This document shows, one piece after another, positions 3,609-49,680 of a stretch of DNA of 49,836 bases; the first letter of the stretch is position 1, and every line of letters begins with the position of its first letter. The notes below the pieces were generated by a model. It was not told the DNA's origin, did not search any database, and was given only the letters and a program-made list of their open reading frames with translations. A program made the translations under genes and the position numbers. Where the stretch lies: assembly GCF_003355155.1 (NCBI RefSeq), contig NZ_CP031320.1, positions 8,033,414 to 8,083,249 of the forward strand. The letters run 5' to 3'. This DNA comes from Streptomyces armeniacus (GTDB lineage Bacteria; Actinomycetota; Actinomycetes; Streptomycetales; Streptomycetaceae).

Positions 3609-5323
3609 GCCCCCGCCTTCGCCCCCGGAGCATCCGCCACCGCCCCGCGCAGCCCGCGCGCCGAGATCCTCTGCGGCCTGTTCGCCGATGTCCTCGGGCT
3701 CGAACGCGTCGGCGCCGACGACGACTTCTTCGCCCTCGGCGGCCACTCCCTGCTCGCGATGCGCCTCGCGAGCCGCGTCCGTACGGTGCTCGGCGCCGAG
3801 CTCACCGTACGGGAGATCTTCGAGGCCCCTACGGCCGTACGCCTCGCCGCCCGACTGGACGTGCGTACGTACGGCCGGGCTCTGCCCGTACTCGCCCCCG
3901 CCGACCGCCCGGACGTCCTCCCGCTGTCCTTCGCGCAGCAGCGCCTGTGGCTGCTGAACCGCATCGAGGGCCCCGGCGGCACCTACAACAACCCCGCCGC
4001 CTGGCGCCTCAACGGCCCGCTGGACCGGGACGCGCTGGCGTCCGCCGTACGGGATGTGGTGACGCGCCACGAGAGCCTCCGTACGGTGTTCCCCGAACGC
4101 GGGGGCGACGGCCGCGCCCACCAGCTCGTACTGGACCCGGCGCAGGTCGGCACCCTCGTACGGCATGAGGAGGTCACGGAGGAGCGGCTGACCGTACGGC
4201 TGGCCGAGGCCACCGGCGCAGGCTTCGCCCTCGACCGCGAAGTCCCGCTGCGCGCCCACCTCTTCGAGGTGGCGCCCGAGGAACACGTGCTGCTGCTCGT
4301 CGTACACCACATCGCCACCGACGAGTGGTCCGACGGCCCGCTGTGGCGCGACCTGGCGACGGCCTACCGGGCGCGCTGCGAGGGCGCGGCGCCGGAGTGG
4401 GCGCCGCTGCCCGTGCAGTACGCCGACTACGCCCAGTGGCAGCACCGGCTCCTCGGCGACGGCGACGACCCGGGCAGCCCGCACGCGCGCCAGCTCGCGT
4501 ACTGGACCGAGGCCCTGGCCGGTCTCCCCGAGGAACTGCCCCTCCCGGCCGACCGGCCGCGCCCCCAGGAGAGCAGCCACCGGGGCGGCGCCGTCGGCCT
4601 GACCCTCGACGCCGGCCTGGAACGCGCCCTGCGGGAGCTGGCGAACGCCCACGGCGTCAGCATGTTCATGGTCGCCCAGGCCGCCGTCGCCGCCCTGCTG
4701 CATCGGCTCGGCGCCGGGGACGACATCCCTCTCGGCGCCCCCGTCTCAGGGCGTACGGACGAGCAGCTGGAGGACCTGGTCGGGTTCTTCGTCAACACCC
4801 TCGTCCTGCGTACGGACCTGTCGGGCACGCCGACCTTCGCGGAACTGCTGGCACGCATACGGGAGGCCGACCTGGCCGCGTACGAGCACCAGGACCTGCC
4901 GTTCGAACGGCTGGTGGAAGCCGTCAACCCCACGCGCTCGCTCGCCCGGCACCCGCTGTTCCAGGTCATGGTCGTCTACCTCAACACCCCCGGAACCACG
5001 CCCGACTTCCCCGGGCTGACCGCGCGGCGCGAGTCGCTCGGGCAGCAGGGCGCCAAGTTCGACCTGAGCTTCGACTTCGTCGAGCAGGGCGACGGAGAGG
5101 GCATCGAGGGCTGGATCGAGTACAGCGCGGACCTCTTCGACCACGGGACGGCGGAGCGGTTTGCGGGGTGGCTGGTGCGGTTGTTGGAGGGGGTTGTTGC
5201 GGATCCGGATTGTGCGGTGCGGGATGTGGAGGTGCTGGCGGATTCCGAGCGGCGTGTGGTGGTGGGGGAGTGGAATGCCACCGGGCGTGTTGTTGAGGCG
5301 GTGACGTTGCCGGAGTTGTTCGA
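3609..5323 (+). CDS. NRPS fragment: peptidyl carrier - condensation - start of adenylation
   Basis: An internal piece of a nonribosomal peptide synthetase. A carrier domain comes first, with [12 protein letters not shown], the serine being the phosphopantetheine site. A condensation domain follows: [13 protein letters not shown] at its start, RHESLRT, the active-site HHIATDEWS, and late motifs such as [14 protein letters not shown] and [12 protein letters not shown]. The pattern fits an LCL-type domain joining two L-configured units. The last 40 residues lead into an adenylation domain and stop after VTLPELF at the IS1182 end. Both ends are artificial or interrupted. From about 5155 the codon style changes to T/G-ending codons, matching other modules in the window. 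Confidence 0.93.
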
Positions 5324-5353
5324 CGCTGTTGGTTAATTCGGGGGCTCGCGTGA

Positions 5354-5394
5354 CGTCGGCCTTCAAGACCCGGTTGTGGTCTTGAAGGCCGACG
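5354..5394 (+). terminator. Perfect 17-bp hairpin inside the IS1182 left end
   Basis: The arm CGTCGGCCTTCAAGACC pairs with its exact complement across a 7-nt loop CGGTTGT. It lies between the left inverted repeat and the transposase start. The likely role is to block transcription or translation entering from flanking genes, a known regulatory device in insertion sequences. No T-run follows, so a factor-independent terminator in the E. coli sense is uncertain. Confidence 0.7.
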
Positions 5395-5401
5395 TTGTCG
5401 T

Positions 5402-48882: not shown

Positions 48883-49011
48883 CTGACCGGCGTGGACGAC
48901 CCGTACGAGCTGCCCGAGGACCCGGACCTGCGGATCGACACCCAGGGCCGTACGGCCGAGGAGTCGGCGGCCGCACTGTACGCGCTGCTCGCTGAGAGGG
49001 GACTGGCATGA
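48880..49011 (+). CDS. cysC: CysC C-terminal end
   Basis: [17 protein letters not shown] to LLAERGLA and stop. The stop TGA overlaps the cysD start as ATGA (49008-49011), giving translational coupling in the authentic operon. Confidence 0.93.
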
Positions 49012-49218
49012 GCGGCACGGACCGGACGACGGACGGCACCGGCCCGGAACGGGAGCCGGAAGCGGAGGCCGCGGCGGCGACGCCGCTGGAGCCGTACGCG
49101 TTGTCGCATCTGGACGCGCTGGAGTCGGAGGCGGTGCACGTCTTCCGGGAGGTCGCCGGGGAGTTCGAACGCCCGGTGATCCTCTACTCCGGCGGCAAGG
49201 ACTCCATCGTCATGCTCC
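49008..49218 (+). CDS. cysD: CysD N-terminal end
   Basis: [16 protein letters not shown], an acidic Ala-rich leader, then [20 protein letters not shown] and [12 protein letters not shown]. The block 49092-49218 is the inverted copy of 43739-43865, where the body continues. After 49218 the sequence is 23S rRNA. Confidence 0.94.
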
Positions 49219-49530
49219 CAACCAGGAGGTTGGCTTAGAAGCAGCCATCCTTGAAAGAGTGCGTAATAGCTCACTGGTCAAGTGATTCCGCGCCGATAAT
49301 GTAGCGGGGCTCAAGCACACCGCCGAAGTCGTGTCATTGCAGCATTACCTTTAACGAGGGTTGTGATGGGTAGGGGAGCGTCGTGTGCCGGGTGAAGCAG
49401 CACCGTAAGGTAGTTGTGGACGGTTCGCGAGTGAGAATGCAGGCATGAGTAGCGATACGCACGTGGGAAACGTGTGCGCCGATTGACTAAGGGTTCCTGG
49501 GTCAAGCTGATCTGCCCAGGGTAAGTCGGG
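49219..49530 (+). rRNA. 23S rRNA, partial (GTPase-centre region onward)
   Basis: GGTTGGCTTAGAAGCAGCCA and GCGTAATAGCTCACTGGTC are the thiostrepton/L11 binding region of domain II. The sequence continues to about E. coli position 1390. The last 129 bases are the inverted copy of 1578-1706, so the two rRNA pieces at the window ends join head to head in the assembly graph. Confidence 0.96.
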
Positions 49531-49680
49531 CCCATGCCTGCGGCGTGGAACGGCGCCGCACCCACCCCTCCAGTGCCGCCCGCTCCTCCTCCGACAGAAT
49601 CAACTCGGCCTTCGGCCGCCCAATACGCGCCACCAGGCAACCCTACACATCTGAACGGAATTCCCGACTCAGAAGACTAG
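49530..49680 (-). mobile_element. IS630 right end with terminal inverted repeat
   Basis: The first 127 bases equal 33550-33676 (start of the transposase gene and its upstream region). The inverted repeat GGAATTCCCGACTCAGAAGA with flanking CTAG follows. It restores the terminus missing at 33676 and shows a TA target at this end too. Confidence 0.9.

Follow-up and report, generated by a model that had tools for sequence, protein, structure and literature searches.

Introduction

The stringing together of draft contigs into concatenated pseudomolecules is a known practice for draft genomes, and the contig output of SPAdes is sorted by length. Part of one published source (PMC5481147) gives 127 as the largest k in SPAdes and describes overlapping sequences at contig ends as arising from the SPAdes process.

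The stretch of DNA analysed here (the window; 49,836 bases) comprises bases 8033414–8083249, the extreme end of a single-contig Streptomyces armeniacus record of 8,083,249 bases with a completeness of 100 and a contamination of 0.31. It resembles SPAdes contigs assembled with k = 127 in the overlap length of 127 bases at piece ends, but differs from them in that the pieces are joined into one sequence without gaps. It also resembles concatenated draft pseudomolecules in having draft contigs strung into one sequence, whereas the record lacks N spacers at the window boundaries, is ordered by falling length and is presented as a one-contig genome. With a probability of roughly 97%, we consider the window to be the tail of a pseudo-chromosome in which short-read de Bruijn contigs overlapping by k = 127, most likely from SPAdes, were joined in decreasing order of length, the joins seen being free of N spacers. 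Our literature searches found no paper on concatenated contigs in Streptomyces and, judged by title, none on topic for concatenated or wrongly complete records.

On this explanation, every contig touching a branching point of the assembly graph would carry the same 127-mer there, so that the 127-mers at the two ends of a contig would also occur at the ends of other contigs. Such repeats as insertion sequences, rRNA and PKS/NRPS modules, lying behind branch points, would collapse into short contigs, which for that reason would land in the tail of the record, and end overlaps would be turned into internal duplicates when contigs were joined without gaps. Four features are predicted from an assembly with k = 127 overlaps (duplicates of one length with a chance tail, duplicates abutting at joins, collapsed repeats with stubs, and cut domains), and all four were seen.

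Results and discussion

Exact duplicates share one length

Self-alignment of the window gave a complete list of 51 maximal exact-match pairs of at least 20 bases, comprising 34 of 20–58 bases and 17 of 127–130 bases, with no exact match of 59–126 bases or of more than 130 bases. Eleven of the long pairs were 127 bases long, four were 128, one was 129 and one was 130. The original prediction had listed nine such pairs (five direct and four inverted), all nine of which were recovered in the same places as exact maximal matches of 127 bases, and in the self-alignment that it had proposed the long matches were confined to 127–130 bases. Its claim that every internal duplicate is 127 bases long held for pairs longer than 58 bases, all 17 of which were 127–130 bases, but not for the 34 shorter pairs; likewise, the tail of chance extra bases that it placed at 127–129 bases was present and short, but reached 130 bases. 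The short matches often ran at a constant offset (for example, 7258–8467 with 17147–18357), as diverged paralogues give.

The 17 long pairs fell into 13 distinct sequence groups, and blastn at an E of 1e-3 found no similarity between any two of these. With their uniform length and sharp ends, the duplicates might be taken for a unit, such as a biological family of repeats or cassettes of 127 bases; however, the 13 sequences are mutually unrelated and thus are not a single repeat family, only exact copies are present, and the 127-mers abut in the middle of rRNA, at transposon ends and in PKS/NRPS domains, with sorted spacing. A dispersed biological repeat family was therefore ruled out, as the copies share no sequence, and we give this reading a negligible chance. 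The duplicates have no biology of their own and represent neither new biology nor a real feature.

The same spectrum was obtained when 2.45 Mb (30%) of the record was compared, namely 0.4 Mb from its start and 2.05 Mb from its end, the latter containing the window, with exact matching stopping at N and one 1455-base match that ran through Ns set aside; the sequence compared held six N runs of 47–4334 bases in 7633414–8033413, and the window held none. Pairs of 127, 128, 129, 130 and 131 bases numbered 84, 32, 11, 7 and 3, compared to 39 pairs for all lengths of 100–126 and 11 for 132–158. Chance extension at a GC content of 0.70 predicts 97, 28, 8, 2 and 1 pairs with one free side and 69, 40, 17, 7 and 2 with two free sides, and the observed tail lay between both models except at 130 and 131, where it was at or slightly above them. 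The long exact duplicates thus share a single length, k, apart from a few chance extensions. The value of k points to SPAdes as the program, since k reaches 127 at most in SPAdes, whose contigs retain overlaps at their ends.

In 400 kb of a single-contig relative (G005), the sole control genome, there were 0 pairs at 127–131 bases and three pairs of at least 60 bases. The first 400 kb of the record, compared with itself, also contained 0 pairs at 127–131 bases, as expected if long contigs come first.

Two repeats of other kinds were observed. The record starts with an exact 390-base direct repeat (1–390 = 396–785), unlike the 127-base duplicates, and 6218965–6219424 holds a long, exact tandem repeat of period 126 (a 334-base match at a shift of 126 and a 208-base match at 252); its period is close to 127, but it is a tandem array and not a join. 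An exact-pattern scan of genome contigs, which may leave out the genome itself, gave no match.

Duplicates abut at the boundaries of pieces

Boundaries were placed from recurring 127-mers, and their positions are good to about 3 bases; five of the 39 (1706, 5321, 8905, 19972 and 36843) were set from recurring k-mers and are absent from the fitted chain described below. With 30% of the record compared, 20 of the 39 window boundaries (record end included) were two-sided, in that one recurring k-mer ended there and another started right after; a recurring k-mer ended at 31 of the 39 and started at 28. A total of 60 of 62 clusters of recurring k-mers touched a boundary, a descriptive figure, the boundaries having been set from these k-mers. 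Duplicates thus abut at joins, as listed below. The 39 pieces would stand for about 47 contigs, with the long gaps filled by the length rule.

1–1706, minus strand: contig end with the 3' part of the 23S rRNA gene, N just upstream of the window; LSU matches, 1578–1706 inverted at 49402–49530
5195–5321, plus strand: 127-mer at contig end, join 5321/5322; equals 36717–36843, inverted at 41289–41415; 5322–5448 occurs at three other places in the record, supplying the second side of boundary 5321
5322–7114, plus strand: contig made up of a single complete insertion sequence, collapsed; imperfect inverted repeats at the termini and a 560-aa DDE transposase (Pfam, ends, stubs)
7115–7241, plus strand: 127-mer at contig start; equals 19846–19972 and record position 6865772
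8779–8905, plus strand: 127-mer at contig end; inverted copy at 35684–35810
18523–19972, plus strand: contig with an IS110-type transposase ORF (18711–19952), recurring 127-mer at its end
25368–25494, plus strand: 127-mer at contig start; equals 42107–42233
27781–28037, plus strand: two abutting recurring k-mers, join near 27909/27910
33550–33803, plus strand: two abutting 127-mers, join 33676/33677
37787–38761, plus strand: contig consisting of a whole insertion sequence, 21-base terminal inverted repeats, DDE transposase ORF (37853–38737)
40430–40683, plus strand: two abutting 127-mers, join 40556/40557
41289–41542, plus strand: two abutting 127-mers, join 41415/41416
42924–43177, plus strand: two abutting 127-mers, join 43050/43051
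43739–43992, plus strand: two abutting 127-mers, join 43865/43866, where an acyltransferase domain breaks off
44494–44747, plus strand: two abutting 127-mers, join 44620/44621, where a partial AMP-binding domain begins
48003–48257, plus strand: two abutting recurring k-mers, join at about 48129
48383–48636, plus strand: two abutting 127-mers, join 48509/48510
48753–49007, plus strand: two abutting 127-mers, join 48879/48880
49219–49530, plus strand: 312-base contig from inside the 23S rRNA gene (LSU alignment); end k-mers recur in two other 23S stretches
49531–49836, plus strand: final piece and, at 306 bases, the shortest; the terminal 127 bases, which close the record, are also found elsewhere in it

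Low-complexity tandem arrays with a period of 33 or 18 were present at 27908–28036, 33679–33803 and 41416–41557, within a k-mer common to three contig ends, and the tandem repeat itself may have caused the graph branch at these three arrays.

The window had been described beforehand as concatenated graph edges overlapping by k = 127. Concatenation of assembly pieces with overlaps of this length was borne out by the single length, the abutting 127-mers, a collapsed repeat with stubs and the cut domains, the last two of which are presented below. As to the nature of the pieces, loose assembly-graph edges would account for those that resemble single edges (the insertion sequences at 5322–7114 and 37787–38761 and the 312-base 23S piece); however, recurring 127-mers were also found inside pieces, at 39824–39950 and 41675–41801 in the window and, upstream of it, for example at 7693332–7693458 in a 17,950-base piece of the fitted chain; finished contigs composed of several graph edges would show this. 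Since edges are at odds with these internal 127-mers, we favour finished, size-sorted contigs and consider loose edges unlikely.

Piece lengths fall to the last base

A chain search that demanded falling piece lengths, ended at the last base and allowed multi-piece gaps at a cost explained 94 of 113 k-mer clusters from position 7684328 on, i.e. over the last 4.9% of the record. In 30 shifted controls, in which each k-mer was moved by up to 600 bases, 46–66 clusters were explained, and the chain score was 81.4 for the record vs 37–47 for these controls, a comparison that is strong near the record end and mild among long pieces. The fitted lengths began at 17,950 bases and ended at 306; towards the record end they were 929, 866, 859, 818, 817, 815, 755 ... 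370, 339, 312 and 306 bases. When two-sided boundaries only were used, the 11 single gaps near the end were strictly falling (929, 866, 859, 815, 755, 493, 379, 370, 339, 312 and 306), and the gaps of 1635, 1689 and 1328 between these fit two or three pieces of matching size.

The order was fitted from 7684328 to the record end. A total of 19 of the 113 clusters lay outside the chain, further ones upstream of the window among them, and the falling order in the window had three misfits: an rRNA piece ending at 1706, which is partly N and would be 3161 bases long if it starts at 8031959; a piece of 1358 bases (19973–21330) before one of 1385; and a piece of 943 bases (36844–37786) before one of 975. 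Trimming or polishing after assembly could explain the second and third of these.

The length order also bears on whether contigs were instead placed along a reference genome and linked there with no Ns in the gaps. Such reference-guided joining would likewise put 127-mers at joins, but reference placement would not sort pieces by size, and here lengths fall to the last base. A reference-guided scaffold was ruled out by this order and is very improbable. The rest of the record was probably built in the same way, and the last piece of 306 bases points to a lower contig cut-off near 300 bases. The joining was probably not done by the genome collection, as other genomes there keep hundreds of separate contigs (for example, 630 in G001).

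A collapsed insertion sequence and fragmented 23S rRNA

The piece at 5322–7114 is a 1,793-base transposable element with imperfect inverted repeats at its ends and a 560-aa ORF carrying DUF772 and DDE domains (Pfam). Among the best 40 of 244 candidates in the record, this element was found in full once, its first 127–128 bases at three more places and its last 127–131 bases at two more, with otherwise weak inverted matches of 40–43 bases. A protein search with the transposase agreed, giving one full copy and short end pieces. Within the same 40 candidates, the repeat is thus collapsed to one copy with k-long stubs, and stubs cut at about 127 bases are what graph assembly leaves. A second whole insertion sequence, at 37787–38761, is bounded at both ends of the piece by 21-base inverted repeats and encodes a DDE transposase on the plus strand.

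23S rRNA was found only in pieces. Among the best 12 of 44 candidates, the record gave three 23S matches, none of them full (two adjoining at the window start and one at 7989497–7990900), a count that may be lowered by the N stretches adjoining 23S places in the record. The window scan gave an additional inner 23S fragment of 312 bases (49219–49530) that was absent among the record-search matches listed, and its end k-mers recur in both other 23S stretches. In the same search (best 10 candidates per genome), G005 had six full copies, G007 had five full and two partial copies, G004 (5 contigs) had seven and G006 (10 contigs) had one. For 16S rRNA, the record gave one 307-base match; N stretches were present, so 16S was unused as a test. 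A 5S rRNA was observed at 10738–10854 (plus strand) without any adjacent rRNA match in the window; it probably represents a contig for a variant 5S from among the collapsed rRNA operons.

Domains are cut near boundaries

A Pfam scan of 16 window ORFs revealed four with domains cut near a boundary. In ORF 42672–45200 (minus strand), an acyltransferase stops at profile position 223 of 319, 14 bases past boundary 43865, and is followed by a PAPS-reductase domain; in ORF 45267–47060, the match to an AMP-binding domain extends as far as profile position 194 of 384 (about 46313), adjoining boundary 46309; in ORF 25136–28261 (minus strand), that to a PKS dehydratase domain ends at profile position 69 of 103 (about 25346), adjoining boundary 25367; and in ORF 42804–45233, an AMP-binding domain starts at profile position 250 (about 44613), adjoining boundary 44620. 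The remaining scanned ORFs had no domain, or had complete or partial ones at a distance from known boundaries. Of the stop-to-stop frames of at least 200 codons in the window, 54 of 111 spanned an inferred boundary, many such frames not being genes in GC-rich DNA.

These results indicate that the window is not a real chromosome stretch, and that the order of its genes, as well as some of the apparent genes themselves, is artificial. In at least the last 4.9% of the record, genes follow one another as in a list of contigs sorted by size, despite a completeness of 100 and a contamination of 0.31, and fusion proteins, PKS/NRPS order or rRNA copy number taken from the record would be artefacts. 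One-contig bacterial records of this kind, of which only the present one has been shown to be so, may conceivably form an unrecognised class of reference genomes, undetected by completeness and contamination checks, at a little less than even odds; if so, studies of gene order, chromosome ends, rRNA copy number and biosynthetic clusters that trust such records would be wrong for them. An exact-repeat length spectrum with a spike at an odd assembler k, together with falling piece lengths, detects such records from sequence alone and reveals k. The value of this analysis lies in a warning on this record and in a cheap test usable on any genome collection.

Several minor observations were made on the gene content of the window. 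The frame at 20301–23444 (plus strand), which crosses two inferred joins, had weak matches to TrwB_AAD_bind and TraG-D_C (type IV coupling-protein domains), and perhaps consists of pieces of a conjugative element. A plasmid search gave partial matches only; these were to 14 records, most of them Streptomyces plasmid sequence annotated as type I PKS. Finally, a cobalamin riboswitch was detected at 45468–45682 (minus strand) with 84.8 bits, compared to a gathering score of 31.5.
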